Origin: Polytrichum commune
Taxonomy: Eukaryota; Streptophyta; Polytrichopsida; Polytrichales; Polytrichaceae
Length of the DNA: 64,000 nucleotides
Assembly: GCA_950295325.1 (NCBI GenBank)
Contig: OX485807.1
Span: 45,166,440-45,230,439, forward strand
Direction: 5' to 3'
Shown here: one piece after another, positions 2,887-54,069 of the stretch
Numbering within the stretch: the first letter of the stretch is position 1
Layout of the letters: each line of letters starts with the position of its first letter
Notes under the pieces: generated by a model
What the model saw: the letters and a program-made list of their open reading frames with translations, nothing else
Databases searched by the model: none
What the model was told of the DNA's origin: nothing
Position numbers and translations under genes: made by a program

Positions 2887-3293
2887 TTTACGAACGTGCG
2901 TTCGTAAGTATGTCCATTTGGTCTATCTTTTCGGACATTTGGTTGATTTATCTTTCGTAAGTACATGTGAGTTGTTTTATTGGTGTTCGCAAATTTATAT
3001 TTGTTCTTTAGATATTCGTAGAGGTTCATATTAAAGTTAAGGTTCCATCTGAGTGATATTTTGCGTATATTTACGAACGTGCGTTCGTAAATATAGATCA
3101 TTCCAAAGAAAGTGGAGTGCGTATTTACGAACGCACGTTCGTAAATGGAGGTTCGGTATGCAGTGTATGTCCATTTACGAACGAGCGTTCGTAAATGGAG
3201 GTGGGTATGCAGTGTATGTCCATTTACGAATGAGCGTTCGTAAATGGAGGTGGGTATGCAGTGTATGTCCATTTACGAACGAGCGTTCGTAAA
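2887..3293. repeat. Type I palindrome cluster (6 sites)
   Basis: Sites start at 2887, 3070, 3124, 3174, 3223 and 3272. Each is TTTACGAACG, two free bases, then CGTTCGTAAA, with minor arm changes. The central pairs are TG, TG, CA, AG, AG and AG. The last three lie in a 49-bp tandem unit. By position this matches the cluster upstream of the ParB-like exon in C2 (48690-49239), so it probably belongs to the leader of E1's B gene. Confidence 0.85.
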
Positions 3294-3369
3294 TGTGATG
3301 GTTTTGGGATCCCCTGTCCGTACATATATGTATTCATATATATACGAATACGTGTATATATACATATAT

Positions 3370-4390
3370 GTATATAACTCACTTATTAGCAACTCTGCTT
3401 GCAGCCGTGCCTGCAAATCTTGGTCAGAATGATGCAAATCTTGAATCATAAAGCAATTGAGATGCAGAATGAGATGCAGAATGAAACATGAAGAAGAAAG
3501 TGATAATTCACATTGCATGTAACAAAACAAATTGAATTCAAGAAGCAACATTTTCAGAATGTGAGAGGAGTTGAAAAGGATAACAAATTACATTGAAATG
3601 CTGCACACTTCAAACCCTGCTTCTTCTCTTTCTGAAAATCCCAGAAATCCTCACAACTGCACACTCAATTGCCTTTCAAATGCACACTCAGATAACTCTC
3701 TAATGCAGACCTCAAGCCTTCACAGCTTATATACAAACCCTAGTATACTCCCATGTACACAAAACTCACAAGCTTGTAGCTCTCAAGCTTCTGAACTCTT
3801 AAGCAAACCCTTAACTCTCAAGCTTCCCTAAACTCTCAAGCTTCAACTCTGAAGCTTCCTTAAACTCTGAAGCTTCTAAAGATCACCCTCAAGCTCTCAA
3901 TCCGAAATTCTGAAGCTTTCCTACTCAAGCTCTCAAGCTTTTGAAACTCACAAACTGTCACACTGAAAGCTTTCACAATCTCACAAGCTTTCACAATGAA
4001 AGCTTTCACAAACTCAAAAGCTTTCACACAAGCTCTCAATCTGAAATCTCTCAAAACTTGCAACAAAACTAATTTAAAACTTCAAGACTAAAAAAAGCAA
4101 GAGCTTCGCTCTCTAAGCGCTCCGCTCCTCCTCTCGTCGAAATGACAAATGAGGAGAAGAGGAAGGGGCACGGGGAGGTAGCTGCGTCGCTAGGGTTTCC
4201 CAGCACCTGCCACGTGGCACAACTCCACTGGCTAGGGCTGGGAGGGAGATGGGATGGGGTGGTATGGGAGGTGATGGGAAGGGATGGGATGGGATGGGAA
4301 GGGATGGGATGGGATGGGATGGGATGCGATGGGAGATGGGAGATGGTTGTATATTGGAACCCTTCATGTTATACTCATACTTTGACATAT
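3370..4390. other. Leader or low-complexity block between palindromes and telomere-like repeat
   Basis: No gene was found. The first part is rich in CTCAAGCTT and AAGCTTTCACAA-like words (about 3700-4070). A GC-rich segment follows with the inverted pair AGAGCTTCGCTCT near 4100, then a short GATGG-type minisatellite at about 4228-4330. A comparable block occupies 49300-50340 in C2. In both it lies between the B-side palindromes and the telomere-like repeat, so it may hold the B-gene promoter or leader on the minus strand. A solo LTR is an alternative, but I see no matched ends. Confidence 0.4.
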
Positions 4391-4939
4391 TTATATGTAA
4401 TGGACGCGTTTAGAGCATTAACTTGAAAAGCTTAGTTCAAATACATGAATTTTACTCCTTTTATTTCCTTAGTACCTCTACATTTGGATTCCTTGTAAAC
4501 ATATTTTAGAAAAGTATGCTCAGTTAATTCGTAATAAACAATGCATGTCATTTCCTAGGTTGTCAATGTAGAATCCACCCCCAAAGATATGTATATGGTG
4601 TTTTAAAATATAGTTTATGTAAGAGCTAGATATCTTTCAATTAATTCGATGGTTCCTCAAATAAATATTACATGCAAAAAGGAATTCATAATAATATGAG
4701 ATTGCGGAGAGTTGCTATACGATAGGATGTCAATTCAAGTTCCAATATTAGGTGTTAGCTTGAACTAATGCATTTCTGGAGTGGTCAACTATTTTGCTAG
4801 CATCAACTACGACCTTGCGATGAATGAAGTTAGTGCAATTACAAGGGTTTTTGAGGAGTCAATATTGTTTGTGTGTGTAATGTATCCTAGTAACAATCTA
4901 AAACCTAAACCCAAATACCACATACACAACTTTCACAAA

Positions 4940-4985
4940 CCCTAAACCCCTAAACCCTACCCCCAAACCCTAACCCTAAACCCTA
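4940..4985. repeat. Telomere-like CCCTAAA block in E1
   Basis: A short run of CCCTAAA and CCCTAA variants. Similar blocks lie at equivalent places in C1 (22276) and C2 (50816), and the flanking DNA is alignable with C1 (GTTAGTGCAAT upstream of both). It is therefore part of the element and not a telomere. Confidence 0.8.
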
Positions 4986-6367
4986 CATCCCTGCATCTTT
5001 TTATCTTACCAACCTTTCTTATATGTGGCCATGTTGTTGTCTGAGGGCATGTCAAATTGGTCTACCAATGTTGGTTGGATGGAGAATGCTTAATTCCGTT
5101 CATAACAACTATAATAATTGATAATGATGCCAATTGTTATTTTCACATTCCAAATTAATAGATTTGAGATAAAACTTTGGTTTAGGTGATAAGTGAAATT
5201 TCAAATATTCCCTCTTTCACTTTAATAGTTCTGAGTGAAATTTCATCACACAATCCACAATCTTATTATAATAACATGCATGTCTTAAGACTTCAATTTA
5301 TATCAACACTTTAAGCTATGATGATGCACATCCTTCTCAAAGGATGCAAAACATATATTAATTGTAAGTACATACTATTGTATGCACCATTCCAAATTAA
5401 TAGTGCATTTCCCCAAACCCTAAAAGTCTATTTTCAATAGGACCTCAACTCATTTAATCATGTGTCAACTTAAACTAACAATCGAACAATGCATTCAACT
5501 ATAAATATCACCAATGATCTAATAAACATTTAACCAATGTGTATCCGTACCCTTACAACAAGTGGACGAAAATTCAATTTCCAATAGGACGTCAAACACA
5601 TAATAATTGTAACTATGATTCAACGTTACGGTAGCTAGTATGGTTTCAAGTCTCAATGATCATTACGCTATCATACTATGCAGCATTACAAATTGATTAA
5701 TCCTTCCTACTCATGCCATTTTAATTCCTTATTTTCACACCTAGATACCATTTGAAAAAAGACCTAACTTACATATATTATTAGGTATAATTAGTTCATA
5801 ATGTCCTCAATCTACCCTAGTGCAAGCCATTATGGATTAACCCGATTTTTTAGTTGTATTCATGCACTTGGTGACCATATTACGGTCATTTTTTGATGTG
5901 AAACATATGATACCTATAATTTTAGGGGCGTCCGCAATATGTTCTTAGCCACTCTGACCTCATTGTGTATGTGTGTGTATATGTGTATATATGTATATAT
6001 ATATATATATCTATAACTTCGACATTCATAACTTTATTAGGCATCAATTGTCAATTAACTTGGACTTCATACCTTAGTCGCAAATCATTAAATATTCAAT
6101 GTTAACCATCTCCATATTTAGACATTATGTGTATATGTATATATATATGTATATACATATATTTCGATGAGACCTTGGTCACAACTAAGGTGTACAACCG
6201 ATTTATATATTTTCAATATGTTGGCGTGCATGCAAGGCATGTTCCATACATGACAATGCTATTTATATAATTCCGCATGGATGGAATGGGAGATTGTTAG
6301 GTCAAAGAAGGCGGCGGGAATCCGCTTTTTAAAGAGCATCCAAGGGATTTTGAACCAGCGGGGTGAA
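4986..6367. other. AT-rich non-coding stretch of E1
   Basis: No coding signal. It contains TA/TG microsatellites at about 5965-6010 and 6130-6170, matching AT-rich runs at the same relative place in C1 (22660-22920). The last 100 bases (from about 6270) align with C1 from about 23060, including the shared words GGCGGCGGGAATCCGCTTTT and AAGGGATTTTGAACCA. Confidence 0.6.
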
Positions 6368-6377
6368 GTACTTAAAG
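6368..6377 (+). promoter_or_regulatory. Candidate core promoter of the E1 A gene
   Basis: GTACTTAAAG followed by a C-rich run is conserved with C1 (23151-23160) and resembles GTATAAAG in C2 (52187-52194). It lies just upstream of the palindrome array in all three copies. A TATA-like role is inferred from conservation and position only. Confidence 0.35.
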
Positions 6378-6537
6378 CTCTTCCCCCCACAACAAAGCTC
6401 TTTTCAGCGGTACATGCAAGTGTGCGCTCTACAGACCTCACCGAACGCGCTCAAGCCATTTCGTGTGCGCCAACCCTACACCACCCAGGTACAGTACAGG
6501 CTCTACCTACCGCATATACCGCCGTAAATACCGGAAC

Positions 6538-7789
6538 TTTACGAATGTGCGTTCGTAAAGATGAGAAGCTTCAGGTTTAGATAAACGATTCGGACTTGTA
6601 CATGGCAAGGATTTACGAACGTGCGTTCGTAAATCCCACATGAGAGCATGTTCTGGATTGAGCTACTCATATGGATAGTCACATGCACGTAATCCATGTC
6701 AGTTATTTACGAACGTGCGTTCGTAAATATTCCTTCGAGGACCATGCAAACATATTTGACCCTTATCTATTGGTACCTGATGGTCGGTAATTTACGAACG
6801 TGCGTTCGTAAATCCCACATGAGAGCATGTTTTGGATTGAGCTACTCATGGATAGTCACATGCACATAATCCATGGCAATTATTTACGAACGTGCGTTCG
6901 TAAATATGCCTTCGAGGATCATACATACATATTTGACCCGTATCTATTGGTACATGATGGTCGGTAATTTACGAACGTGCGTTCGTAAATCCCATAGGAG
7001 AGCATGTTTTGGATTGAGCTACTCATGGATAGTCACATGCACATCATCCATGGCATTTATTTATGAACGTGCGTTCGTAAATATGCCTTCGAGGTTCATA
7101 CATACATATTTAACCCCTGTCTATTGGTACCTGATGGTCGGTAATTTACGAACGTGCGTTCGTAAATCCCATAGGAGAGCATGTTCTGGATTGAGCTACT
7201 CATATGGTTAGTCACATGCAAATAATCCATGACAGTCATTTACGAACGTGCGTTCGTAAATATGCCTTCGAGGATCATACATGCTTATTTGACCCGTATC
7301 TATTGGTACTTGATGGTCGGGAATTTACGAACGTGCGTTCGTAAATACATGTCATTATTGTCTACGCATCCAACAACACATCTTCATTCATACACATCAG
7401 TATGGCAGTAATATACGAACACAGAATAGCAAGAAAAATATGCTCATCGCTCGTCCATGAAGGATGTGAACACGGGGTCGCACCCATTTACGAACGTCCG
7501 TTCGTGAATGGGTAGGTACGCAAAAGTCAACATAATCAAATTCACAATATGAAGGTGCTCAGTGTTCAAAATATTGTTGGAGTTGATTCAAGCATCATCT
7601 GCAGATTTACTACTTTTGTGCGTATGGACAAGTGTTCTCTTGTGATAGTATATCGCGCAGGTTCCTAAGTCAATATGGTACTTTGACCTACAAAACCGAT
7701 ATTCCTGAGGGTGCTCTCAGATGAGGTATCTCGAAGGCCGCCGGATGCACATGGAGAATACACTGAGGTCACGAACGCGCGTTCATAAA
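6538..7789. repeat. Type I palindrome array upstream of E1 A gene (12 sites)
   Basis: Sites start at 6538, 6612, 6706, 6791, 6883, 6968, 7070, 7145, 7239, 7324, 7487 and 7768. The central ten lie in a tandem unit of about 177-179 bp that carries two palindromes, nearly all with central TG. The array lies between the candidate promoter and the coding exon, which begins after a 3' splice-site-like TCTAG at 8102-8106. It is therefore probably in a 5' leader intron. Apparent small reading frames here simply translate the palindrome. Confidence 0.85.
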
Positions 7790-8111
7790 TTCGTGTGGCG
7801 TTCTCGGATTTGTGATTTCGTCGTCTGTTGTATGGGGACAGGCGCTGGTCCGAACAGCAGGGCCCTCCTGGACGACTAACGATTGTTCTCCTCTTTGTCC
7901 ATGTATTGTTTACATTAGTGAGGCTCCTAGATGTATGCTTAAAACGTTTTTTTGGGACACGCGTTCGTCTTTGTGCGTGAGGTTCTCCAATGGTGCACCA
8001 AAATTTGTTTGTCAATTTTGGGCCATGTATCTCCACATATATTCTATCCTCTCTTGTATGCATTGCGGTGGTGGTTGGGTTGATCATTTCCTAGTTGTTG
8101 GTCTAGGCGGT

Positions 8112-11100
8112 ATGGCGTTGCATGTGGGTGATAGTTCATTGGAGTTGTCGACGTATGCATCGTCATCCGATGCTGAATGTGAAGTGTCTTCCCCGTCGGC
8201 AGATAGTAATGGTGTGCCGAACGTGAGGGGGGTGTTTGTGGATACATCCTCCCATGAATCTTTGGAAGTCCACGAACAATCTCTGCATTCCGGAGATGAC
8301 CACGATGACATTCCGTTGTGTGCCGGTTTCAGGAGGGAGCAATGGGTTGGCCTTGACGTCGTTCTACTCAACGAGGTTGGTGTCCCGGTGGCAGATGGCA
8401 TATGTAGAAACTCCAATCCCCGTGATTGTGTCGATGCCAACGCCCTAGGTCTCGATGATGTTGGCGTGTGCATCTTGAACTCTTTGCTTCCGCTAGAGGT
8501 CCCGGTGACATGGAGATTTTCCTTGCGTCGATGGCCGCTTCGTCAAGTTCTACATGAGGAAGTGAGTTTGTGGGATCATGAGCGGCGGCATAAGCAAACA
8601 CAATTAGCTTTGTTGGCCAAAACACGTCCTCGCAAAGGCCTCCGTAGATATGATTCCAACCGTGTGCCTCGCGGAGATAAGGAGCGTCGACGGGATCGGC
8701 TTTTGGGGGACGAATCTATCCGTCTAGTGTCCGGCAAGGATTGTTGCGCGAGGAAATGTTGCCAATTTTTCCCGCGGGAGAAAATTAGGTCTCTGCGTCA
8801 AGAGATGTGGCTTGCGGATTTTCGTATGAGGTCGGCTAAGAAACTCGAGGTCCACAGAAATTTGCACCTTGATACATATGGGCATAAGGTGGTGACACTT
8901 AAGAATGTTGATGTGTGTTGTACAACGTGGTATACCATCCACGCCGTCTCCAAGGCTGACTTTTATAGGTTTCGAAAGTATTCATCGTTGGGTCGCCGCT
9001 CTCGATTTCATGGCAACTCGGGCACAAAGAAACCTAGGGAGGCTACACTGCAAGCGTCCGCGACACTATCCACCATCATACTGCCATTGGCCGATGCAAT
9101 GCCCCACAAGACGAGGATATTGTCGTTAGGGGAGAAGGTTGTTCAAATGGTGTTGCCCACGGGCACAAAATGGAAGAACATCTTAACGGACATCAATGAA
9201 GTGGGTCGCATAGCGGGATGTGGGCCCATTTCTTTGTCCAAGTTGAGTGTGATTAAAAACCAGCAGTTTGCGGAATACATTCTGAAAAGACCTGGGGACA
9301 AGTTCGCTAGATGTACGACGTGTGAAAAATACAAAGGTCTTCAAGACGCCCACCTCATAGGCACTGAATCTCATTCCAGACACCAGAAAAAATATATTGA
9401 ACATGTCAACAATCAAGAGGCACACCGTCAAGATTACTATAAGAATCGTGCTCTATCCATAATGAGGCCCACAGAGGTTCTAACAGTCATCTATGATAAA
9501 ATGGACCATGCCAAAACCGCATGCCCTTGTTATGCACGCAAAATAAAGGCCACGGATGGTCTCTTCAAGTTGCCCGTAGCTGTCACAGGTTTGTATGAAA
9601 TCACAACTACGTGTTTAAAGTCTATCCAATTTTCGTGGGTGTGTTTGGCAAATGTCCAACTCCATACATCCGTTTAATGGTTATTTGATTATTTTGGTCA
9701 CGCATCGTTTGTTTTTTCCAGGTATGATTGCCCACGGCCATGGGGACGTAAAATATGCCCATTATGGTTTGGATTTTTACCCTGGGGATGCTAACCACAC
9801 GGTGGGTTCATTTGCAAAACTCTTGCGCGATCTTGAGAAGCCACCGGTACATTCTTCCCGTGCACTTTTTGATGGTTGTGGAACCACATCCCTTTATGAG
9901 GCAGTGCTTGCGGGGAAGGAGGTTTGTATGTCGTCATTGCGAGAACCACCCGGAGAACCCATTTGTGCAAAACCATTGCCTCCAACTCTCCGCGTTCAAC
10001 TTGATAATTGTACGAAGGACAACAAATGTCGATACGTATTTTGTTTTTGGTCATTGCTCGTGGCGAAAGGAATCTTCAAGGAGGTGTTTGTGTCTTTCTT
10101 GATGGTGGGACATACACACGACGACATTGATGCATCATTCGGACGGTGGAGCATGAAGTTGTATGAAGAAGATTTTCCAACCATACCTTTTCTTATGAAA
10201 TCGTATATGGTACTGGACCATATGCCAGTAATTCCGCACTTGATTGAGGAAGTACCAGATTTCAAGGCCTTCATCAAGCCATACATGTTGAAGGGAGGGG
10301 ACCGTTTGGTGGGGCATACCAAAGCACAACAATTCCGATTCTATATAAGGGACGATGGTCTCCCGGCCATGCAATTCAAGCTTTTGTGCACATTTCCTAA
10401 TTGGGGCCCGGATGATGGTATACTCGTATGGCGTCAAGACAATGATGGCAAATGTTTGCTTCCGGATGGGGTTCCAAAGCCTTGCAAACCCGACCCCATG
10501 AGGAATGGGCCGGAAATCATCAAAGGCATATCCGGATTCATTGAATATTGGAAAGAGTTGTGTGAGGACGACATCACTAGACGTGTTAGAGATACTCATG
10601 AACCTTTGATTGCGTATTGGGATCGCATTCGCTCGGCCCTAATGACACTTGGTGGCGACACCCGTACAACTTTAACACAAGGATTTTGGCCACAAAGCCG
10701 TTTAACGGTTGTCGAGTCCGACACCATGTTTTTTAGCAATGGAGACGTTCGTGAAGAGTTCGTAATGGACGAGCATTACGTTGGCCCTGCCCGCAATTGA
10801 CCGGCACCGTCGTTTCGTGTAGGTGTTGATTGCCATGAAGGTTATTTGGTCCTTGTACGAGCAGGGGATGAGGAACATCCCAAGCCAATTTGGTTGGTGA
10901 AAGCATTGTCTTCACCCAATTTTGTTCGAACTAGCCCCAATTTTCGTCAAATTGAGGTGGAATATTGTCGTCCAAGCACTAAAGACCAAAACGTGCTACG
11001 CACTTATTTAGGTTGGGACACCAAAAAGAATTTTAAGTGGACAATGGACTCAGCGTACACACCGGTTTGGATAAACATAGACACTATATTTTGTGCTTGG

Positions 11101-11241
11101 AAGCCGCGTAAAGGTTCCAAAACAAAAACAATGACCATCCCCCAAAAACATATAGATTTTGCCAAAGACAACTTGGCACGTATTGCAGCGGCAGAAAATG
11201 ACGCCGAGAATGGATATGAAACGGAAGATGGAGATGTGTAA
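8112..11241 (+). pseudogene. A gene of E1: DUF7869-type transposase-like protein with one premature stop
   Basis: Exons are 8112-9588 and 9722-11241. The 133-bp GT-AG intron splits a Gly codon as in the other copies. The ATG at 8112 aligns with the C1 start (MDMGDSAFELS) and follows a splice-acceptor-like TCTAG. The order is an acidic N-terminus, an NxxPxDCxDxN segment, a CC-CC cysteine segment (CCARKCCQFFP), HAVSKADFYRF, KFARCTTCEK, YDKMDHAKT, MIAHGHGDVK, LDNCTKDN and GHTHDDIDASFGRW. A TGA at 10798-10800 replaces the Arg that C1 encodes with CGG, consistent with a CpG transition from CGA. The frame then stays open to the normal TAA. It is clearly of the C1 subfamily. Confidence 0.88.
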
Positions 11242-11630
11242 ACATAACATAGGTGGGAGTTAATGGCGAAAAACATGGACGCTTAGTAGACTTGGTTTTT
11301 AATAGACTTAGTGGACTTGTCACATTCCATTGTGGTATACGTTTGGGATGTGCCATCCAAATTCATAAGAGCCTTACTTATGGGATGCGCACCCCAAACT
11401 CTATAATGACATAAACCATTTATTTTTTAGAGTCGATTGTTATTTTCCACATGGAACTCACGTTTTCATTTTAATTGAAATTCTTTATTTTTAGTAATAA
11501 GAATATGCTTTACGTGCGAATTTTTAAATCGTCATGTTCTTGATGTTCCCAATATTCCGTATGCCCACAATATTGGCATCCCAAACTATGGGCATATTTT
11601 ATTTTGAGACTTTCAAAAGTCTCCGATTAA

Positions 11631-11643
11631 CGAATATAGTGTT
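11631..11643 (+). repeat. Right terminal inverted repeat of E1
   Basis: CGAATATAGTGTT, preceded by TCTCCGATTAA as in C1. A GAGACTTT...AAAGTCTC hairpin lies just inside at about 11605-11623. ATAT at 11644-11647 is the expected target duplication. Confidence 0.75.
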
Positions 11644-14041: not shown

Positions 14042-14054
14042 AACACTATATTCG
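14042..14054. repeat. Left terminal inverted repeat of C1
   Basis: AACACTATATTCG, identical to the left end of C2. Inside it comes GGAGACTTTTTG then GAGAC at 14080-14084, that is, a direct GAGAC repeat. The right ends instead carry an inverted GAGACTTT...AAAGTCTC. The left end of C2 has the same direct layout. Confidence 0.8.
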
Positions 14055-14443
14055 GTATTTGGAGACTTTTTGTTGATTATGAGACTATATAAGGATGCAC
14101 ATTTCAAAATTGGACCAATAATGACGACTAAAAATCCCATATGTATAATGGTATGCTACTATTATTATACATAAAGGCATGGAAGTGAAAAAAAATGTGA
14201 GGCATACATGAAAATAGTTGCGTATGAAATGACAACTCGTTATGAATGGAAGGGAAGATGCGAAGAATGAATGGAAGTTGAATGAATTAATTGGGATAGA
14301 AATACAATTATAATGGAAATACCATCAATGTCTTGAGTAACTTGGAATAGCATAGAAAGTAAGCACTTAAATATGTTCTACACCTAAGCCCATTTAGGGA
14401 GTCCGTCCCACTAGTACGCTTCTAGTCACACTAGTCCGACCCA
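14055..14443. other. Left subterminal non-coding region of C1
   Basis: AT-rich, with no gene. It probably holds the 3' untranslated end of B-II, which reads leftward toward the terminus. Confidence 0.5.
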
Positions 14444-15351: not shown

Positions 15352-15525
15352 CTGGGGACGAGGGGGGACGGGAAAGGCCGTGGAGGACGGGGGCGTCACA
15401 TATGGGGGCAAACTATGGGGAACAACAACAATAACAACAACAACACAGACAACAAAGACATCCAAAAACGGATGAAGCGTTAGATATGTGAACCAAATGA
15501 TAACACGCACATACATGAAGATATT

Positions 15526-41490: not shown

Positions 41491-41949
41491 CTGCGGATAC
41501 GAGCGAGAGAAAACGGGGGCGACTTATGTCATGCTATGTCCAAACGAAGCATTAAGGAAACGAGCGTTCTCGGTGCAAACACAAAAGCATTTGATTCATT
41601 TTGGAGGGGGTGCAACAAGGGATACAAGGGATACAAGAGCATACAAAATACATTCAAACACAATATACAAGTATATAGGAGTCAAAAATGGTGATTATAT
41701 TATATACAATGCTCTATGTACATCTTGATTGGGGGAGCCGCGTTGAACGATGCGTTCAAACTAGCCTACTTCTACATCTAGAAAAAATTGAAGAGACGGG
41801 CCGCCGTGATGAAGACTTCGTTGCAAAGCCGGGGGTAGGTGGACGAACGAATGGTCGCTGGGGGTGACGAAGGGCGCGAGTGCCGGGGGGGGCCTAAGTT
41901 CGTCCTAGCTAGGGGACACGACCAAGGCAAGAAGTCAAAGACCCAGGAA

Positions 41950-41971
41950 GTTTGGGTCGGCCGACCCAAAC
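41950..41971. repeat. Type II palindrome in B2 intron 4
   Basis: GTTTGGGTCG, GC, CGACCCAAAC, about 20 bases inside the intron from the donor. Confidence 0.88.
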
Positions 41972-41992
41972 TGAGTGGGGTCAGTGCATTAC

Positions 41993-43476: not shown

Positions 43477-43559
43477 CTGCACAATCAAAATCAATACTAT
43501 TAGTAACACCAAATGAACATATAATGGAAAATGACTTCCAAACAAAATAAGAATAGTTA

Positions 43560-43617
43560 GTTTGGGTCGCTCGACCCAAACTATGCATGGCCCTAGTTTG
43601 GGTCGCTCGACCCAAAC
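43560..43617. repeat. Two type II palindromes in B2 intron 3
   Basis: Sites at 43560-43581 and 43596-43617, both with central CT, in the 175-bp intron equivalent to the C1 intron with two type I sites. Confidence 0.9.
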
Positions 43618-43651
43618 CGAACGTATAGGGACTTCTGGGTTTTCTGCTTAC

Positions 43652-44983
43652 CATGGCTGCAAAAATCGGTTTGGACCCCCCGAAAACGTTGAAGATGCAG
43701 TCCCCTCTCTTCGTGAGGGTCCTCATCATCCGCAGGTAGAACTCCATGCGCAGCTCATCCGCGGGGTAGTTGGCGTACTTCGCCTCGTCATATAAGCTCC
43801 TGCTGGTACCCAACCCTTCTTGGACTTGGAAGAGCTTTTCCATCCTGGCTATGGGATGGTTTGGCACCTTAAGCAGCTCAGCTTTGTACACGAAGTACAA
43901 ACACAGCACGTTGACGATCTTCGTCTTCTTGTCTTTCAGCGTGCTGTACGCCCCCTCCGCCGGTGCAGCAACGTAGTGAGATTTCGAGACGGCATACTCC
44001 GGCTGCAATTTGCGCACGATCTCGTAAACCTGCTCTGCCCTTCTGTCCTCGACAATCCAGAGCCAGACGTCGACCTCCCTGAATTTGGGGCTGGCGTAGT
44101 CCACGAACTTTGACAAGAAAGGATCGTAAAAAGGGGTGCTCATAGTCCCCTCGAATGAGGCTCCAGGGATGTTCCTGAAGTCTATCATTCCGAAGGGGAA
44201 GCGGTCCCCGGCTCTAGTCCTGATCGCCTTCCTTGACTCAGAACCCGGCCAACCCTGGATCCTGAGAGGTTCGACAGTGACCATGTTGAATTGCGCATCG
44301 CCTTCGAAACTGACGATCTTCTTCTACTTTATGAAGTTGGAGAAGGCCCGCACTGAGTGTTCGGGAAGCGCCCGGTTCCTCCCCCCCTTCACGAGCTTGG
44401 ATCTGAGGAAGTCGTCTCCCGCCTCCCTCATGAGTGCCGCCATGGACGCACTGGTAAACTTATATTCGGCTTTGAAGGCCCTCCAGTGCGCCTCGTCGAC
44501 CTCTCCGTCCACGATGAGCTTCTTCTCTGGCACAAGCTTGTGCAGCTCCTGGACGATGGTCGTCTTCTTCTTCTTGTTCTCCGTCCATTCCTTCATTGTG
44601 TAGCATGAAGGGACGAAGATCTTGGGTTTGGTGAAGACGATCTTAGGGTGGACCCAGCATCTCTTCGCCGTCGTCTCCACGTGTAGGATGTGGGACGCCG
44701 CTTTTCCCATCTCTGTCTCGGAGAGACCTTGAAGCGCTCTGAAGAACTCCCTCACCAAAGGCTTCATTTGCTTGAAGCGCGTAGTCTGGTTGAAGAGCAT
44801 GCCGGTGTCGGGGTCCATGAGGTCCCCCGTCTCGTGTTTTTCAAAAACACTCTTCCATCTTGCCCATACGGAATCGGACGCTGTGATCAAATAGATTTCT
44901 CCTCTCAGCTCGTTATACTTTTTCTGCTTGTGGCTAGCATTGTCGATCGAGGAGAATTTATTGATCATTTGATATTTGAAGTC
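43652..44983 (-). CDS. B2 exon 3: DNA-methyltransferase-like region, one stop
   Basis: Acceptor TGTGCAG, donor GTAAGC, 444 codons, phase 0. The first half (DFKYQMINKFSSIDN, WARWKSVFEKHE, KEWTENKKKKTTI) has no recognised motif. The second half reads FRNIPGASFEGTMSTPFYDP, REVDVWLWIVED, ELRMEFYLRMMRTLTKRGD and CIFNVFGGSKPIFAAM. The end resembles the (D/N)xFxGSGTT motif I of amino-methyltransferases, but the catalytic DPPY box is not obvious, so activity is doubtful. An in-frame TAG at 44324-44326 (after AFSNFIK) interrupts it. The second half aligns with C1 throughout. Confidence 0.65.
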
Positions 44984-45045
44984 CTGCACAGGAAGACATT
45001 AGCACATGTTAGACAACACATAATGGAAAAACAAATGCAACAGCA

Positions 45046-45238
45046 GTTTGGGTCGAACGACCCAAACTATGAACCTGGCGAAAACATCTTAACAATTTCA
45101 GAGTTTGGGTCGACCGACCCAAACTATGAACCTGGGGACAATATCAAAATAATTTCAGAGTTTGGGTCGACCGACCCAAACTATGAACCTGGCGATGACA
45201 ACAAAACAATGTAGGAGTTTGGGTCGATCGACCCAAAC
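45046..45238. repeat. Four type II palindromes in B2 intron 2, 57-bp unit
   Basis: Sites start at 45046, 45103, 45160 and 45217, exactly 57 bp apart, with central pairs AA, AC, AC and AT. The last lies immediately after the GTGAGT donor of exon 2. Confidence 0.92.
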
Positions 45239-45246
45239 ATACTCAC

Positions 45247-45545
45247 CTCCCATTTGGGGTTCTTGTCTTTAGCATTCTCCCTTTCCTTGGGAGGCCTTCC
45301 ATAAAACTCCCACACCTCCCTCGAGGCCATGATGTTTCTGATCCACGATGCCTGATAGGCCCTCTTTTTGTTCCCCATGTTGAAGAACCTGGAGATGTCG
45401 CTGAGGACCGTCTCGTTGTCCGACCAAACCACCAAAGCCTTCCAAACTTTTAGCTTCTCCTTCTGGTTGTTCGGGTCGTCCCACTGTGAGGCCAAACCCC
45501 CCACCCTTAAGCGTCCGTAGTCCGAGTAGTGGGTTTGGGCTCACA
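45247..45545 (-). CDS. B2 exon 2: continuation of the ParB-like region
   Basis: The frame reads HYSDYGRLRVGGLASQWDDP, KLKVWKALVVWSDNETVLSD, ISRFFNMGNKKRAYQASWI, then KNPKWE at donor GTGAGT. No named domain is recognised, but it directly follows the DGQH segment of exon 1 once the insertion is removed. The upstream boundary is set by the 12-bp repeat at 45534-45545. A TGA lies in that repeat in the same frame. Confidence 0.6.
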
Positions 45546-47557
45546 TTCCTCCGCGGTATTGGATTTGGACTTGGATGAGTCCATAGTGCAAGGTTCACCC
45601 TTCAAGTGGTCTTGGATTTAACTGGAATTTCACTTTTAACAACTCAATGTACGATTTCAATACGTATGTGGAGAATGCACAAGTTAACTATGTTATTTTA
45701 ACCTCCTTATGCTCGGGTGCTATTTTGTCTTTGTTTGCTTCTAACGTCCATCCGGCTGCTTTAGCTACACAAGCCCTTAAGGATATCCCTCTCCTAAATG
45801 GAGTCCGTGCCGTTGACTCTATACTACCACTTGAACTATCACTTGTGTATTCCGTATCGCTACTATAAGAGGTTTCACTTGGTGTCTCCATACCGTACAT
45901 AAGCCTTTAAGTATTAAGAAATACTTATGTGACTTATGTCAATCTCTCCCTCGCACCTTTGGTCTTTGCTTCCTTTGTCTTGCCATCGCGAGAGTGCTCC
46001 ACATTCTCCATTAAGTTGTGCACGTGGTTTATTTTTAAAGAGAGGATGCAAGTGTTAAAAAAAATACTATTCTCTATAGTCAATCTCAAATACATTTACT
46101 TGTGAAAGCCACACATAACACTAACTAGCATAATGTAACTAACTACTTGTCTATGAGCTAATTAGGTAGGCTATCTACTAAGCTCCTTCATGAACCCATC
46201 TCTTTACTTTCTAATTACATAAACCCAGCTCCTTCATGAACCCAGCTCCTTAGCTTCTAACTAAACAAACCCAGCTCCTTCATAAACCCAGCTCTTTACT
46301 TTCTAACTAAACAAACCCAGCTCCTTCATAAACCCAGCTCCTTCATGAACCCACAACTTTGTAGTCGTAATCCCCAACTACCTCACTAATTATTCAAGCC
46401 CTTAACTAATCTTCCTACCTAATTTCCCTAATTCTACTAACAACCCCTTTCTAATCACACAATTCTTCTCTAATCCTAAAATCCTAAAATCCTAGAGAGG
46501 AGAGGGGGAGAGAGAATTTCCTAACTTCACTAAGACTAACTAATCCACACAAGTATATTTTTGCACTCATCACAACATCAAGTGCTCAACTCTTAAACAT
46601 GGAACTTGCAACCGCGTGTATTCAAAACATGAACTTTAAGTACCACAAATTGGAATCATGAATTAACTTTAAAATCCTTCACGTCAACACTAATTTTACC
46701 AAGAGGTCAAGCCCTCTTCAAGGCTAACAAGCCTTGGCTCTCAAACTAAAAACTAAGCACACACATGTGCTCCAATATGGCTTCCCACACCCACACTTAT
46801 AACTCGTGGGGTGCCTTGGAGCACAAAGGAAAGAGAGGATGAGTGAGGGAAGAATGAGGGATTATATAGTAAGCTTGAGGGGGTGAGCACCCTCAAGGCT
46901 CACGATAAGCCCTTGAGATTTCCTCCTACTTAGTAGGCGCCAATCCTATCTTCTAAGTCTTCCTCCCTCAAATGATCAACAAGGATCCTAATTCGAACAT
47001 TTAACTAGCCTTGGCTTTCTACCTACCACACTTTACCAAACTTGGGATGCTTCAACCCAAACTTAGCCTCCTTCGCTTTCCGCCGCCATAACTTTCTCCC
47101 CTTACTTTCCCAAATCGTCGCTCACCACTTAATTCAAACCACGATGCTTAACTCGTGATTTGATTGGTGCTTTGAGAATTTGCTTATCCTCCACCTTGCA
47201 TTCTTCCTTGGGCCTTCCCCATTAAGTGGCCATGATGAGGTGGTCCACTTGTGCGCTCCATGTGATCCTCCATTCATCCCAATTCGAATGCACTTGCCTC
47301 TTGAGTCACTTTGGTTGTCTCCATCCATTTGTACTAGCCTACTCACTAACTACTCAATCCAAGTTCTCCTTACCTATCCTCATTCACTCAAATCCTTCCG
47401 AAGGTAAAAACACAATAACAACTCACATCCTAGCCTCTTACAACATGGTACTTCTAAGGCTAACATTTCACTCTTTTTATATTTTTGTGAAGTAACATGC
47501 TACTTCAAAGTGCATCAACTAACGTTTCAAGGGTCTAAGACTAAATGTGGGCACCCT
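45546..47557. mobile_element. 2-kb insertion inside the C2 B gene
   Basis: It is flanked by a 12-bp direct repeat TTTGGGCTCACA (45534-45545 and 47558-47569). It contains a tandem AACCCAGCTCCTTCAT(G/A)-type repeat (about 46220-46350), GA-rich sequence, and on the minus strand a 70-codon frame (45688-45900, METPSETSYSSDTEY...) that could be a retroelement gag start. No terminal repeats are evident. An LTR-derived or other retroelement fragment is possible. It separates exon 1 from exon 2. Confidence 0.5.
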
Positions 47558-47569
47558 TTTGGGCTCACA

Positions 47570-48662
47570 CCCACTCGGTCATCAGCTGGATTTTTTTCGA
47601 GGCCTCCACACTGTGCTGCCCGTCAATCAGCCAGAAGTCTCCTTTAGAGATTGCCGGCCACATCTCAGGCGTCGGCATTCTTTTCAGCCCTTGTGGCATG
47701 ACAACAATTGTCTGCCTGTCGTCCTTGAACTGCCCGCCCAAGATTTGAGCGACCATCCAGTCGACGTAGGCGTCCTCCTTGGCTCGGACGCACTTCTCTG
47801 GTGGCGCAAGGTGGCACTGCGCAATGTTGACCTCGAATTTGAAGTCCCTGCCCATGAAGAAGCAGTGCAGGCATTTTGTCTCGAAGTTGTTGTTTATTTT
47901 TTGTATTTCGCCTGCATCCACCTCTTGGCCAGGCTTCGGCATCCGGAGCTCCGGGGAAACAGGCTCGTCAGTCATCCCCGATGACTCTCTTCCCCTCTTG
48001 GAAGGGGTCGTCTGACGGCTTCCTGATGGCGTTGGCGTCTCGCTGTCAGCCGGCGTTGTTGTAGTGCTCGTCCGTCTCGAGTCTGCAGGGACCGCCCGCG
48101 GTTTCCTCACAGTTTGTGGTCTTGAGGACCCTGCGCCTTCTTCCGTCGTTGCCTTCCGCCTCACAGGCTGCTGCGTCTTGGGTTTGCTTTGCAGCGCCTT
48201 GTTGAGAACCGTGATAGCCTGTTTTAACTTTGTGAACCTGCTCGCAACCTTCGTGTTCGTTACACTACCATCTATGAATATGGCCTCCGGTTTTATGGTT
48301 TCAGGGTCGACGCAAGTCTCCTTGGCGTACAGGGGGTCGAAGGGCTCGGAGAACTGGTGCATGAACATGTGGACGTTCTGCACGGCGGAGTTCTCCAGTA
48401 TCACGTCTACGTAGTCCCCGAGAGACTGGACGGACGCAACCTCCCATCCCGTCAGCGTTGCCCAGGTGTGCTGCTCGTGGGTCCCCACCTTCACCACGAA
48501 TAGCAGCTTGAACATGGATGCCTTCACCACCTGAACGGACCATGCCAAAACGACGCCATCTTTTGGGACGTAAGAATCGTCCTGTGGAGTTTCATACTCC
48601 TGCCAAAGGTGGTCTGGCGCGAGCATGAACCACCTTTCACCTGGTCTCTTTTTAGGGGCCAT
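47570..48662 (-). CDS. B2 exon 1: ParB-like domain
   Basis: The ATG at 48662 directly follows a splice acceptor (GATTGCAG), so translation starts with the exon, and the palindromes upstream lie in a leader intron. The protein starts MAPKKRPGERWFML; a Ser/Thr/Pro-rich basic linker (about residues 165-235) is followed by MPKPGQEVDAGEIQKI, CLHCFFMGRDFKFEVNIAQC, KEDAYVDWMVAQILGGQF, TIVVMPQGL and GDFWLIDGQHSVEASKK. The LIDGQH box and preceding strands resemble the N-terminal ParB/sulfiredoxin-like fold (IxDGHHR), found in plasmid partition proteins and in nucleases. ParB-like is a motif-level call. Confidence 0.65.
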
Positions 48663-48689
48663 CTGCAATCCAAGAAATCGAAACTGTGA

Positions 48690-49239
48690 GTTTCGGTCGA
48701 TCGACCCAAAGTATTGCAATGTGCATTTAACATTTGGAGGATTGACCCAAACATTTACTTAATTTTCAAAGTCGTTTTAAAAGATCTTTTAGATTTTAAA
48801 GTGTGGTTTAGGTGGTCACCCTGTAATGTTTGGGTCGAGCGACCCAAACATGATGAGGCTGCAAATTTAGGTATCTCAACACATTCATTTCAGACTGCAA
48901 TGTTTGGGTCGAACGACCCAAACAATTACTTAATTTTGGAAGTTCTTTTATATTTTACAATGTGGTTTAGTTCTTCTCCCTGTAATGTTTGGGTCGAGCG
49001 ACCCAAATATGTTAGGCTGCAAATTTAGGTAGCTCAACCCATTCATTTCAGACTGCAATGTTTGGGTCGAACGACCCAAACAATTACTTAATTTTCAAAT
49101 TTCTCTTTTATTTTACAATGTGCTTTAGTTCTTCTCCCTGTAATGTTTGGGTCGAGCGACCCAAACATAATGAGGCTCCAATGTTTGGGTCGCTCGACCC
49201 AAACAAGAGGCTGCAATGTTTGGGTCGAACGACCCAAAC
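48690..49239. repeat. Type II palindrome cluster in B2 leader (8 sites)
   Basis: Sites start at 48690 (one arm changed), 48828, 48902, 48987, 49060, 49145, 49183 and 49218. There is a half site near 48739 and a degenerate one at 49291. Central pairs are AT, AG, AA, AG, AA, AG, CT and AA. Part of the cluster is a tandem unit of about 158 bp. It mirrors the array upstream of the A gene. Confidence 0.9.
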
Positions 49240-49309
49240 ATTTAGTTCATTTTAGGCTGCAATTCAAATATTTATTATATTTTAATATGAGTTTGGGTCG
49301 TCTCCCCAA

Positions 49310-50360
49310 ACTACTGTGTTTCCAGATGCATGTTTAATGCTTGGGCAACATATACAATGCTTATGCATTGTATATGTAACAAGAACCTAAAGGGAATGAT
49401 GCAAATTGTGTGCACTGATGCAAATTGCTTACCTTGTCTTTCAAACTCTTGAAAGCTGCTCTCACAATCTGCTTCTTACAACCAGACTCAGAAACTCTGT
49501 TGTGGCACTAAAGAACAACTCTCACAAAGATCTCAGAAACACAATGAATCTCTCAAGCACCCTAAAACTTTCTCACAAACCCCCTGATTCTTGCAAACTC
49601 AGGCCTAATTTGAAAGACCTCTACCTTTCTATCACACTCGACCGTGCTCACTTCTACTCAACCTAAAATCACTCCATGCATGAATTTTACAAAACAAGTA
49701 AGGAGTTCAACACAATAAACCGCTCCGAACTCACTCAAAGCTAACACTCTGGACCAAGAAGAGAGAATAAGAAGAGGAAGACAATAACACGAGGAATAGA
49801 ATGAGAGAAGAGGAGGAGAAGCATCAGAGAGGAGGAGAGGAATGAAGGAGAAAGAAGAATGAAGGGAAGCGGCGCGACCAAGACAAAAGCAAAAGGTGCG
49901 AGAGGAAGCGCTTGGCGCGGCGCTATGGAAAGCGGCGGCGGCGTTTCCAAGAACGGCGCTTGGCGCGGAGGAAGAGAGGAAGAAAAAGAGAGAAAGAAAA
50001 AAGAGGAGGGGAGAGAAGGAGAGAGCGGAAGGGGTCACCCTAAACCCTCGAATCCAGGCCATTAGATTGCGCCGGGCCCATCAACGACTCAGAAGCCTCG
50101 CGGGCCAACACCTTGCCAGGTGTCGACACCTCCTTGGTTTAGGTGGTTGCCCGCGAGGCTTGTGGTGTTGACACCTGCCACCCTAGGGAGATTGCCTTCC
50201 TGGTTGTCCTTGCCCCTAGGTGCGGGACATAGGAGGCCGGCGCCTCTCTTGGCCGCCCGGCCCCGGCCTTCTAACCCGCTATTCATTAGCGGCAATTCAA
50301 TACCAGTCAAAAACCTACGTGGACTAAGGTATTCCACAAAATTAACACCATCACCAACTC
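49310..50360. other. Central GC-rich block of C2, probable B leader or promoter region
   Basis: No convincing coding frame. It has CTCTCA/CTCACAA-type simple words (49420-49640), a purine-rich stretch (49745-50030) and GC-rich DNA to about 50280. It resembles the block at 3370-4390 in E1 by position and composition. A promoter for the leftward B gene is expected here but no box can be named. Confidence 0.4.
50093..50161. repeat. GC-rich stem-loop
   Basis: A 13-bp perfect inverted repeat AAGCCTCGCGGGC / GCCCGCGAGGCTT spans a 43-base loop that holds the palindrome AGGTGTCGACACCT. Confidence 0.8.
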
Positions 50361-50815
50361 ATATTTTAATGGTATTCAATTGAATGATCACCCGTTGGAA
50401 TTGATAACATCGTTGAATGTAGCCATTATCGTTTTGGTGTATGAATAATGTAATTTATGGAATCATATGAGAGTGTTACAAAGTCTAAGAGGAGTAAGTC
50501 ATAATTATATTGCAATCCACAAAGGCAATTACACGGTGCAATAATATAAATATGGTAACCATTCACATGGTTAACAGTTTAGGATTATGTATTGTAATTT
50601 ATATGATGGTTGTTGGTAGAGGACAATGCTCTAGTCTATAATGGATACCCTAACAAGTAGCATTAGAGTGAACATTAATATATGTACTTAGAAGTTCACA
50701 TTTGAAGTACATGGGAGAAACAAATGATTACAAATGTATCTACTGCAACCCCATGGAGTTCACATATCATATGAAGTCATTTAAACATTCAGTTTGATGT
50801 TTGATGATGCCTGAA

Positions 50816-50844
50816 CCCTAAACCCTAAACCTTAAACCTTAAAC
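50816..50844. repeat. Telomere-like block in C2
   Basis: CCCTAAACCCTAAA, then degraded CCTTAAA units, at the place equivalent to those of E1 and C1. Confidence 0.75.
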
Positions 50845-52187
50845 AACACAAACCATAACTGGATGGCACATAGGTCAAATGACATGGGCCTTGGTGCTTG
50901 TAGTTTCCAATACAAATGTATATTGTCATCACAACATCCTAATTCACAAACGTGAAAGATGGATGTGTGGTTTTTCACGAATGAACGCACTAAAGGAAAT
51001 AAACGATATTGTGCTCACAAGTAGGTGATACAATATTAACCTATAACCTTGTCACCTGGTAAGAAGAGCATAAGAACTAGATTATAATGGATAGGATGTT
51101 GTTCATGTTAACATGTTATTTGGAATAGTGAAATATTATATATTAATTTAAGGTAGATTTCATGTTGTGAATGATATGAGGACATACCTTTTGAACTTTG
51201 CATGTTTTGCTCACACACATTGGTAGAGTTCAAGGGACTTCACGATAGGTTCAAACATCCTTGGAAGATTGAACGTGCCAAATGTCATTTGTGGTTTAGG
51301 GTTCCATTAATGACTTCCACATAGGTACTAGGTTATTGTCACACTTGGAGTCTTGAGGATGAAGCAATATTGGGTGCACACATTACAACACAACATATGT
51401 TCTTTTAATTAGCAGAAATTGAAAGTTGGCCAAATTATTCAAGTTTGTCATGGCATTAATTATTTGTTTTCAAAATATAAGTCCTCATGTGAGAGTCTAA
51501 ATAATAGCATTAACTATTATATTTAGTGACTTTTAGTATATGAAGTTTTATAATACATGCACATCTTTTGTCAATATATTGTTTGAAATATACCATAATG
51601 TTTGACTACAAGTAGAGTAAAACCCCTTAATAGATATAATCTTACATATTGTCATAGGGTTATTGGTATTCAGTGTATGCGTTCATATGTAGTGTATCAA
51701 AACCTTTATATCCTTTTTAGTTATATGATAGTTAGTGTTTGATACACTTAAAACGAACGCATACACTTCCCATTACTAACCCTATGAGAGTAAGTAACAT
51801 TAAATGTAAACTCAAACACTAAATATCCACTATGGTGATATATGGAAGTTACATATAGGGATTTAGTATTAGTAAGGATGTGAGAAAAATATACAACAAT
51901 GATAAAAGGAGAAAGGAGATGGCAATAGGGAAGGTGGTGGTGTATTCATGTATAAAACTAATTATGAAAGAGTTGAAGAATAGTGTTGACCAAGTTAGGG
52001 TGGTAACAACTTTAAATATATGTTGAATTATTCATTTGGTGGTTGGGGCAACGAAGAGCCAAGCTAAATATACATTCTCTATTATTGACAAGAAGAGGGA
52101 AATTGAGTCAGAAGGTTTGAATTAACATCCAAAGGAGACCAGGTGGGAAAGGCATCCAAAGAGGATGCCCAAAGCGGAGGCGGGTAG
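50845..52187. other. AT-rich non-coding stretch of C2
   Basis: No gene. It contains an inverted-repeat hairpin at 51653-51786 and, near its end, the hairpin GGCATCC-AAAGA-GGATGCC at about 52151. Confidence 0.5.
51653..51786. repeat. MITE-like imperfect hairpin, 134 bp
   Basis: CATAGGGTTA and AGTGTATGCGTTC on the left are repeated inverted on the right over about 50 bases. The outer limits are unclear because similarity may extend about 20 bases each way. Confidence 0.5.
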
Positions 52188-52194
52188 TATAAAG
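52188..52194 (+). promoter_or_regulatory. Candidate TATA box of the C2 A gene
   Basis: TATAAAG followed by an AGCCCAACCCCCC run, at the position of GTACTTAAAG plus C-run in E1 and C1, about 220 bases before the palindrome array. Confidence 0.4.
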
Positions 52195-52408
52195 AGCCCA
52201 ACCCCCCCAAATGCTGGTTCTTTCTTTCATGTCCCAATCCTGAGATTGCTGCAAGCTCTCTAAGTTGGAGCTGTAATACACGGTTTGTATACGCTTCCAT
52301 TCATGAGCAGCTAATTACAACAAGCATCTATGAGTTCAGTTGTCCCAAATAGGTTATAAATAGATTAATAGAGCATCACCTGAATAAATAGGCGGATTTT
52401 GCGGAATT

Positions 52409-54069
52409 GTTTGGGTCGGTCGACCCAAACCCAGCCTTACAGTGTGGGTGCTCTCTGTATTGAGCCAGAACCCATCCTGCCTCAAGGTTTGGGTCGATCG
52501 ACCCAAACCCAGCCCTACAGTGTGGGTGCTCACTGTTGTGAGCCTGAACCCATCCTGCCTCATGGTTTGGGTCGATCGACCCAAACCCAGCCCTACAGTG
52601 TGGGTGCTCACTGTTGTGAGCCTGAACCCATCCTGCCTCATGGTTTGGGTCGGTCGACCCAAACCCAGCCTTACAGTGTGGGTGCTCTCTGTATTGAGCC
52701 AGAACCCATCCTGCCTCAAGGTTTGGGTCGATCGACCCAAACCCAGCCCTACAGTGTGGGTGCTCACTGTTGTGAGCCTGAACCCATCCTGCCTCATGGT
52801 TTGGGTCGATCGACCCAAACCCAGCCCTACAGTGTGGGTGCTCACTGTTGTGAGCCTGAACCCATCCTGCCTCATGGTTTGGGTCGGTCGACCCAAACCC
52901 AGCCTTACAGTGTGGGTGCTCTCTGTTGTGAGCCTGAACCCATCCTGCCTCATGGTTTGGGTCGGTCGACCCAAACCCAGCCTTACAGTGTGGGTGCTCT
53001 CTGTTGTGAGCCTGAACCCATCCTGCCTCATGGTTTGGGTCGATCGACCCAAACCCAGCCCTACAGTGTGGGTGCTCTCTGTTGTGAGCCTGAACCCATC
53101 CTGCCTCATGGTTTGGGTCGATCGACCCAAACCCAGCCCTACAGTGTGGGTGCTCTCTGTTGTGAGCCTGAACCCATCCTGCCTCATGGTTTGGGTCGAT
53201 CGACCCAAACCCAGCCCTACAGTGTGGGTGCTCTCTGTTGTGAGCCTGAACCCATCCTGCCTCATGGTTTGGGTCGATCGACCCAAACCCAGCCCTACAG
53301 TGTGGGTGCTCACTGTTCTGAACTTGAACCCATCCTGCCTCATGGTTTGGGTCGGTCGACCCAAACCCAGCCTTACAGTGTGGGTGCTCTCTGTTGTGAG
53401 CCTGAACCCATCCTGCCTCATGGTTTGGTTCGATCGACCCAAACCCAGCCCTACAGTGTGGGTGCTCACTGTTGTGAGCCTGAACCCATCCTGCCTCATG
53501 GTTTGGGTCGATCGACCCAAACCCAGCCCTACAGTGTGGGTGCTCACTGTTGTGAGCCTGAACCCATCCTGCCTCATGGTTTGGGTCGGTCGACCCAAAC
53601 CCAGCCTTACAGTGTGGGTGCTCTTTGTTGTGAGCCTGAACCCATCCTGCCTCAAGGTTTGGGTCGATCGACCCAAACCCAGCCCTACAGTGTGGGTGCT
53701 CATTGTTGTGAGCCTGAACCCATCCTGCCTCATGGTTTGGGTCGATCGACCCAAACCTAGCCCTACACTGTGGGTGCTCACTGTTGTGAGCCTGAACCCA
53801 TCCTGCAAAAAGGTTTGGGTCGCTCGACCCAAACCCAGCCCTCTAAGTGTGGGTGCTCCCTGTCGTGACCCAAAACCCATTCTGCCAAAAGGTTTGGGTC
53901 GCTCGACCCAAACCCAGCCCCTAAGTGTGGATGCTGTCTGTAGTGAGCCTAAACCCATCCTGCCAGAAGGTTTGGGTCGCTCGACCCAAATCCAGCGCCT
54001 AAGTGTGGGTGCTCTCTGTATTGAGCCTGAACCCATCCTCCCAAAAGGTTTGGGTCGCTCGACCCAAAC
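52409..54069. repeat. Type II palindrome tandem array upstream of C2 A gene (22 sites, 78-bp unit)
   Basis: Twenty-two palindromes at 78-bp spacing from 52409 to 54069. Central pairs are AT or GT in most units and CT in the last four. One site (53423) has a changed arm. The unit length is 26 codons, so several frames on both strands stay open through the array; these long repetitive frames are not taken as genes. The array ends about 200 bases before the acceptor-like GTGTAG (54272-54277) and the A gene ATG, so it is probably in a leader intron. Confidence 0.93.

Follow-up and report, generated by a model that had tools for sequence, protein, structure and literature searches.

The question raised by this locus is why related transposons should carry, in large numbers, the same kind of short palindrome in different spellings, and what reads them. 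The locus is a 64,000-nt stretch of the genome of the moss Polytrichum commune (hereafter, the window), located on contig C5 of a parent genome of 408 Mb in 64 contigs. It contains the elements E0, E1, C1 and C2, which belong to a family of large DNA transposons with a gene A, encoding a DUF7869 protein, and, on the opposite strand, a gene B. The palindromes are 22 bp long, with two 10-bp arms around a central dinucleotide, and come in the window in two spellings, type I and type II. On balance, we think it probable, if far from certain, that these palindromes serve as sites bound by the B protein that the element itself encodes and make up a diverging self-address code, with anti-silencing as its most likely effect.

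Palindrome dialects in the window and in the genome

With up to three mismatches allowed, the window yielded 35 sites of type I and 39 of type II, against 0 of either type in 100 shuffles, confirming that the 22-bp palindromes with 10-bp arms reported in a preliminary description of this sequence are real. An open scan of the window for any palindrome of the form 10-NN-10 returned only the arms of these two types (GTTTGGGTCG, 35 exact; TTTACGAACG, 18 exact), AT runs and one singleton. Type I was limited to E1 and C1 and type II to C2, as originally described, and the central dinucleotide varied as claimed, except that a CC centre was absent from the plus strand of type I. The arms of the two types differ at 5 of 10 positions. 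Genome-wide, exact sites numbered 2909 for type I and 9231 for type II, and reversed-pattern controls gave 0 for both.

A search for further dialects built on the same plan of arm, dinucleotide and arm was likewise productive. At five loci read around other DUF7869 matches (L014-L018), we identified dialect III (CCACGGGTG-NN; L014) and dialect IV (GGTGAGGCA-YA; L015 and L016), and the examination of stretches upstream of A described below added the sub-dialects I' (TTTACGGACG) and III' (CCACGGGCG), with genome-wide exact counts of 1147 for I', 819 for III and 208 for III'. A single genome thus holds at least six spellings and thousands of sites. The CG-NN-CG architecture, initially proposed to be shared, characterizes I, I', II and III', but the centre is TG-NN-CA in III and CA-YA-TG in IV.

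Two other palindromes with a fixed TA centre were observed in passing, V (TGTCTCGG-TA-CCGAGACA; L009 133-2067, spacing ~139 bp) and VI (CTGTGCGT-TA-ACGCACAG; L011 5777-8031, spacing ~64 bp). None of the dialects I-VI was present at loci L017, L018, L020 and L021.

Sub-dialects differ symmetrically in both arms

In the I family, the A/G alternatives at position 7 were paired across the arms in 254 of 257 sites, compared with 184 expected from the column make-up, and in type III the T/C alternatives at position 9 were paired in 67 of 68 sites (38 expected). Half-site hybrids were correspondingly scarce genome-wide, with 43 I/I' hybrids vs 2909 I and 1147 I' sites, 36 III/III' hybrids vs 819 III and 208 III' sites, and 0 I/II hybrids. 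At most of the remaining positions of I, II and III, pairing did not exceed expectation, and the changes among 54 distinct type II sites were decay-like, 65 being one-sided vs 1 symmetric. Sub-dialect switches thus affect both arms at once, as expected if the reader acts as a dimer. Once a unit has switched, tandem amplification helps it to multiply, but this alone leaves the dispersed copies unexplained.

Sites are mostly non-coding and accompany both genes

Most sites lie in non-coding sequence, either ahead of A or B or in what are probably introns of B (Table 1), and the layout in types I and III resembles that of type II in C2. Within one element, the array units vary in both length and sequence, the recurring part being the 22-mer. 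The E1 sites at 2887..3293 are co-linear with positions 119-504 of locus L002, which precede a match to the first exon of B (L002 813-1877), and in type III there are also sites past the 3' end of A (L014:3751). Several sites fall in open frames: 16943 and 17331 of C1 (frame 16869-18326), 42254 and 42323 of C2 (frame 42214-43545, past the frame change of the second copy), 48690 of C2, which is inside an open frame yet ahead of its first Met, and L059:4239 of type III.

Dialect family follows element lineage

To relate dialects to lineages, we picked 27 matches from the best 150 of 1491 DUF7869 candidates and took 1.9 kb upstream of each; hit groups, consisting of open-frame length plus profile range, were listed before the upstream stretches were read. 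Dialect family follows the DUF7869 hit group. Type II occurred in five of the six stretches of group 502, with no dialect in the remaining one; the I family, which was not predicted beforehand, occurred in all eight stretches of groups 539-631 (five mainly with the I' core and three with the I core); the III family occurred in all nine stretches of groups 677-762 (six III and three III'); and the four matches starting at profile positions 6-8 were split between two with IV and two with none. Altogether, one dialect family was found in 24/27 stretches, none in 3/27 (L024, L046, L047) and two families in 0/27. The association of dialects with A subfamilies anticipated in the preliminary description was thus recovered. 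Permutation of the labels on the 24 stretches gave 5.7e-12, which, the copies sharing descent, is not an independent-event probability. The link to A is apparent at the family level only, given that open-frame group 677 contains both III (L040) and III' (L041).

Starting from the other gene, type I sites were present upstream of 6/6 type I matches to the NIF domain of B, as expected from the way these were selected. Starting from the palindromes, five of seven loci drawn from the type I and type II genome lists carry A or B pieces (L001-L003, L004-L006, L010, L012, L013).

The element ends split by lineage only in part. All four right ends (E0, E1, C1 and C2) and the left end of C2 terminate in one and the same 17-nt sequence, AACACTATATTCGTTAA, which the left end of C1 matches with 2 mismatches, and differences between types I and II begin further in, so that the previously suggested lineage-specific termini apply to the inner bases but not to the extreme ends. 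The ends of type III and type IV elements were not found.

Gene A, gene B and a predicted ParB-like domain

The only Pfam match of A is DUF7869 (E about 1e-39 to 1e-41), and no match to A was found in phage records; from its position and the inverted repeats, A is presumed to be the transposase. Gene B comprises several exons (P0007, P0006, P0005, P0004) followed by a NIF/FCP-like phosphatase domain, the joining of its ParB-like and phosphatase-like parts into a single gene being putative. For each of the five parts of B, related sequences occur in type I as well as type II loci. In type III, the first part, the second (P0006) and the last were recognised, and in type IV, in which the B copies are broken, only the first part was identified. 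In type III, B was located in L059, at a distance of ~13 kb from the array that precedes A, and its membership in the same element is an assumption; it was not found in the flanks examined first (L019, L056, L057).

Types I and II are 66-70% identical in A, compared with 35% and 39% in the first two parts of B and 46% in its phosphatase domain; types I and III are 40% identical in A, 26% over the alignable parts of B and 38% in the phosphatase domain. Pfam scans of the B pieces gave NIF alone above cut-off (54.4, 51.6 and 43.1 bits in I, II and III vs a cut-off of 21.8). For the type I NIF domain, the best 150 of 1263 candidates are all 91-100% identical, and most are free of internal stops.

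In lineages I-IV, the first exon of B contains the motif [DN]GQH[STV], after which come a strand and a segment with Asn; the rows of I, II and IV show 20-23% identity to III. This ParB-like motif was spotted ahead of any fold search. From an 8-row alignment, we predicted five models of the type III domain, with which P0007 of C2 aligns. The best model has a predicted local distance difference test score (pLDDT) of 61.0 and a predicted template modelling score (pTM) of 0.60, and within residues 51-170, 11 of 12 ten-residue blocks have means of 65-89 and one of 51. When this model was compared with the PDB using Foldseek, the first 22 matches were all ParB, Noc, KorB, PadC or Srx (sulfiredoxin), the best with an E-value of 0.012 and a probability of 0.99. 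In a second structural comparison, 7bnk_B (Myxococcus ParB) matched with Z 8.2 and a root-mean-square deviation of 2.8 across 95 residues, and every one of rows 1-13 was ParB, Noc, PadC or KorB. The first-exon domain of B is therefore likely to adopt a ParB/sulfiredoxin-like fold, as predicted for type III, with related sequence in I, II and IV. The nucleotide motif of ParB is GxRR, which is not matched in B, where the sequence reads [DN]GQH[STV].

B as the candidate reader and competing explanations

ParB-fold proteins read palindromes. Of the two element-encoded proteins, B is the likelier reader because of its ParB-like domain, its divergence, which is faster than that of A, and the 17-nt terminus common to types I and II: the end code for the transposase seems unchanged, while the palindrome arms differ. 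The diversifying recognition code with a dimeric element-encoded binder put forward in the preliminary description is partly supported, at the level of sequence, by the lineage-specific palindromes, the symmetric switches and the further dialects that it anticipated, with B likelier than A as the reader.

Under this scheme, we infer that a B dimer would bind each palindrome, with one arm per subunit and the central 2 bp mostly unread. B would occupy the many sites that precede the two genes as well as those in its own introns, and would perhaps spread from them in the manner of ParB. The arms and their reader would have diverged together, such that lineages I, I', II, III, III' and IV each address their own copies. 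The most likely effect would be to sustain expression of the element in the face of host silencing, as VANC does, and the phosphatase-like domain might act on transcription. A more elaborate proposal, namely, a eukaryotic addressing system akin to ParB-parS, in which a dimeric clamp loads at its own dialect and slides, the phosphatase-like domain keeps transcription going, and arms and reader switch together, is tentative and, as a whole, unlikely. CpG depletion was considered separately as a sign of methylation and set aside, with values of 0.40-0.98 within the window that did not separate the elements from their surroundings.

Several observations weigh against B as the reader of a self-address code. 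The faster divergence of B equally fits relaxed constraint and is support rather than proof. In type IV, symmetry is incomplete: only 32 of 129 sites are paired at position 6, compared with 56 expected, and 127 of the 129 have TA or CA at the centre. Given the shared descent of the copies, the dialect changes amount to about five independent events. Three of the five I' stretches each contain one I-core site, and loci L009 and L011 have 13 and 18 type II sites, respectively, without an A or B match at 1e-4; these cases also loosen the strict segregation originally claimed, which otherwise holds by hit group. On the structural side, one of five type III models was usable, the other four having pLDDT values of 43.8, 37.7, 35.8 and 34.5, and modelling the first exon of type II in full gave a poor result (pLDDT 31). 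Foldseek gave nothing at E 0.001 or better, a Z of 8 is close to the ambiguous level of the second tool, the domain has no ParB-family match in Pfam, NCBIfam, PHROGs or PDB sequences, and one B copy (L010) has DGQYN at the motif. The usual catalytic motif of NIF/FCP phosphatases is DxDx(T/V); in B, it reads DLNGV (I, II) or DVNGI (III), and this replacement of the second Asp by Asn makes catalysis by the phosphatase-like domain doubtful.

With regard to L009 and L011, their genes look transposon-like, but the lone support is a SWIM match below cut-off (E 0.076), and no family was assigned. A ParB-like protein at these loci was also considered and dropped, there being one DGNHR motif only and a profile comparison of 1.2% over 23 columns.

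Among the competing explanations, the one that fares best retains B as the reader but has it repress or balance the transcription of A and B, providing copy-number control as KorB/ParB-family repressors do. Arrays directly upstream of both genes and the presence of KorB among the structural matches would fit such a role; however, some sites are situated well away from promoters, in what are probably introns, a single array comprises 22 sites, and an abundant, recent family, as indicated by the close similarity of the best 150 type I NIF candidates, is not predicted under tight repression. We regard this as a serious but unlikely possibility. It is improbable that A is the binder and uses the palindromes as accessory sites inside the element during transposition. 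The A hit group and the dialect family do co-segregate, and arrays directly precede A in each of the four dialect families in which it was found, but the shared terminus of types I and II, despite their different arms, and the slower divergence of A placed it below B as a candidate, and most sites of C1 and C2 are kilobases from the element ends.

Recognition by host DNA-binding proteins that the elements exploit would accommodate the type II sites at loci without A or B genes, but a host site would be common across lineages, in contrast to at least six lineage-tied spellings with symmetric switches, and we give this explanation little credence. Least plausible of all is the absence of any reader, the palindromes being by-products of satellite amplification or hairpin formation: many copies do sit in fixed-period tandem arrays, and a unit, once switched, can be multiplied by amplification; against this, a single 22-mer recurs in C2 in arrays of different units (78, 158 and 57 bp) and as dispersed singles, the two-sided sub-dialect differences contrast with the one-sided decay of type II, and a 2-nt centre makes a poor hairpin loop.

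Elements and neighbouring features of the window

The type I and type II elements are DNA transposons of 14-19 kb with inverted repeats and 4-bp target duplications (Table 1). A second type II copy, at contig C1:610757-628840, is flanked by the duplication ACTT, and the duplications are 4 bp (CTTT, ATAG, ACTT) in all three copies with both ends seen. E1 is 96.6% identical over 8.8 kb to contig C1:2265805-2274536. E0 is 88-90% identical to positions 54258-57888 of C2, and the rest of it lies to the left of the window, interrupted by another type II copy; the part examined there (L008) has 20 type II sites and 0 type I sites, in agreement with the earlier grouping of E0 with C2. The interrupting type II copy (L008 ~1124) is 99.8% identical over 4.9 kb to window positions 39161-44053, suggesting recent movement.

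Table 1. Coordinates of elements, genes and palindrome sites in the window
Feature	Position	Strand	Details
E0, right end of second type II-lineage element	1..2875		TIR (terminal inverted repeat) 2859-2875
E1, right-hand part of type I element	2876..11643		left side interrupted by E0; TIR 11627-11643
Type I palindromes of E1	2887..3293		6 sites; upstream of B judged from related copy
Type I array upstream of A in E1	6538..7789		12 sites, 177-bp unit
C1, complete type I element	14042..28104		14.06 kb, inverted-repeat ends
C1 ends	14042; 28088-28104		TIR with 2 mismatches (left) and 0 mismatches (right); 4-bp target duplication CTTT (cttt/cttt)
NIF/FCP-like phosphatase domain, B of C1	15526..16227	-	PF03031 E=1.5e-14
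Type I sites, B region of C1	16398..18493		8 sites
Type I array upstream of A in C1	23319..24059		9 sites, 244-bp unit
A protein of C1	24526..27708	+	DUF7869, 1060-aa frame, probable in-frame intron; PF25273 E=4.3e-40
C2, complete type II element	39161..57879		18.7 kb, nested 2.08-kb insertion
C2 ends			31-nt inverted repeat, 97%; exact 17-nt TIR at both ends; target duplication ATAG
NIF/FCP-like phosphatase domain, B of C2	40678..41373	-	PF03031 E=1.2e-13
Type II sites, B region of C2	41950..43617		41950, 42254, 42323, 43560, 43596; probably introns
Acidic/proline-rich exon P0004, B of C2	42214..43545	-	
Middle exons P0006, P0005, B of C2	43298..44989	-	counterparts in loci of types I and II
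Type II array between B exons 1 and 2 of C2	45046..45238		4 sites, 57-bp unit
First exon remainder (approximate), B of C2	45245..45485	-	past nested insertion; translation matches L005
Nested insertion splitting B of C2	45486..47569		ends TGTGAGGCC.../...GGGCTCACA; 5-bp duplication CCCAC
First exon, left piece, B of C2	47565..48719	-	P0007, to DGQHS motif of ParB-like domain
Type II array upstream of B in C2	48690..49239		8 sites, 158-bp unit
Type II array upstream of A in C2	52409..54069		22 sites, 78-bp unit
A protein of C2, three frames	54190..57347	+	PF25273 E=8.2e-41 on 55863-57347

The nested insertion that splits B of C2 is missing from the matching place in the second type II copy. Elements of 1.35-2.1 kb with the same TGTGAGGCC/GGGCTCACA ends also occur inside A of that second copy (L004 ~4534-6050) and inside a type II palindrome at L009 (~5450-7725), with 5-bp duplications in C2 and L009. 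A repeat of ~975 bp, probably a long terminal repeat, accounts for several insertions in the type I copy at contig C1:2264001-2294000 and is also present in the left flank of the window and at L009 (loci L002, L003, L007 and L009 in all).

Outside these elements, window positions 29362-34119, a region of strong GC skew, and L014 1-2841 contain open frames of retroelements that show reverse transcriptase or RNase H together with a PCIF1 WW match; against a cut-off of 31.1 bits, the match falls short in the window (26.5) and passes in L014 (33.9). Elsewhere in the genome, partial cytosine-DNA-methylase matches (PF00145, mostly profile positions 48-121; best 123 of 353 candidates, several in 1386-aa frames; for example, C6:31140883-31141131 and C4:3511535-3511792) look like a repeat-borne methyltransferase-like domain. 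The chlorophyll a/b-binding family, in keeping with a photosynthetic eukaryote, has 58 genome matches, of which 14, with equal best E-values, are clustered at C5:1751760-1846160.

Relation to known systems

ParB-parS serves bacterial DNA segregation, with palindromic sites that form tandem arrays in some plasmids (sopC). The moss elements resemble ParB-parS, sopC, KorB and Noc in combining a predicted ParB-fold protein with palindromic sites, some of them in tandem, but differ from ParB-parS in having [DN]GQH[STV] in place of GxRR and in that the spelling of the site differs between close relatives.

The closest system in logic, as far as the accessible parts of the cited papers extend, is VANDAL/VANC, and the closest in parts is the transposon Sola1-1_Ec32. 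VANDALs are Mutator-like elements. In Arabidopsis, they encode VANC, a sequence-specific anti-silencing protein (PMC5735166, PMC10398659), and carry short, tandemly repeated motifs ahead of the transposase gene and within introns of accessory genes; these motifs differ among related elements, and the transposase is more conserved than the accessory protein (PMC5735166). The motifs of the moss elements are likewise lineage-specific, tandem and mostly non-coding, and occur with a variable B and a conserved A. The arrays, which precede A and B or fall within probable introns of B, correspond in placement to VANC targets, which bears out the likeness to VANDAL logic drawn in the preliminary description. 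Unlike the moss palindromes, the VANC21 motif is a 9-base non-palindromic sequence, YAGTATTAY, and VANC carries DUF1985/DUF287, domains that Pfam scans of the B pieces did not return.

Sola1-1_Ec32 from Ectocarpus is a 21.5-kb DNA transposon with an accessory protein combining ParB-like and DNA methyltransferase parts, and similar ParB-like accessory proteins are cited for green and red algal transposons (PMC12477816). It shares with the moss elements the giant size and a ParB-like gene on the strand opposite to the transposase; in contrast, the B domain is joined to a NIF/FCP-like phosphatase, and no methyltransferase was found in B. The string 'palindrom' occurs 0 times in the main text of that paper (PMC12477816). 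For Salpingoeca Sola1, values of 32 and 4 are given, which we take to be repeat length and target duplication (PMC6875170); the corresponding values for the moss elements are 31 and 4, but 4-bp duplications are also found in other superfamilies. Our searches, which covered open-licence literature, found no paper on transposon ParB-like proteins with cognate palindromes. Relative to the literature examined, within the portions available, the new features are the pairing of a ParB-like protein with palindromic arrays, the dialects and the phosphatase-like partner domain.

Implications

If B indeed reads the palindromes of its own element, these transposons would represent a second, structurally different answer to the problem solved by VANC, that of telling one's own copies from others, and would suggest what kind of target to seek for the ParB-like accessory genes of algal transposons. 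With a code legible from DNA alone and a candidate reader at hand, the dialects offer a natural experiment on protein-DNA recognition and its switching, and may provide orthogonal DNA-address pairs.

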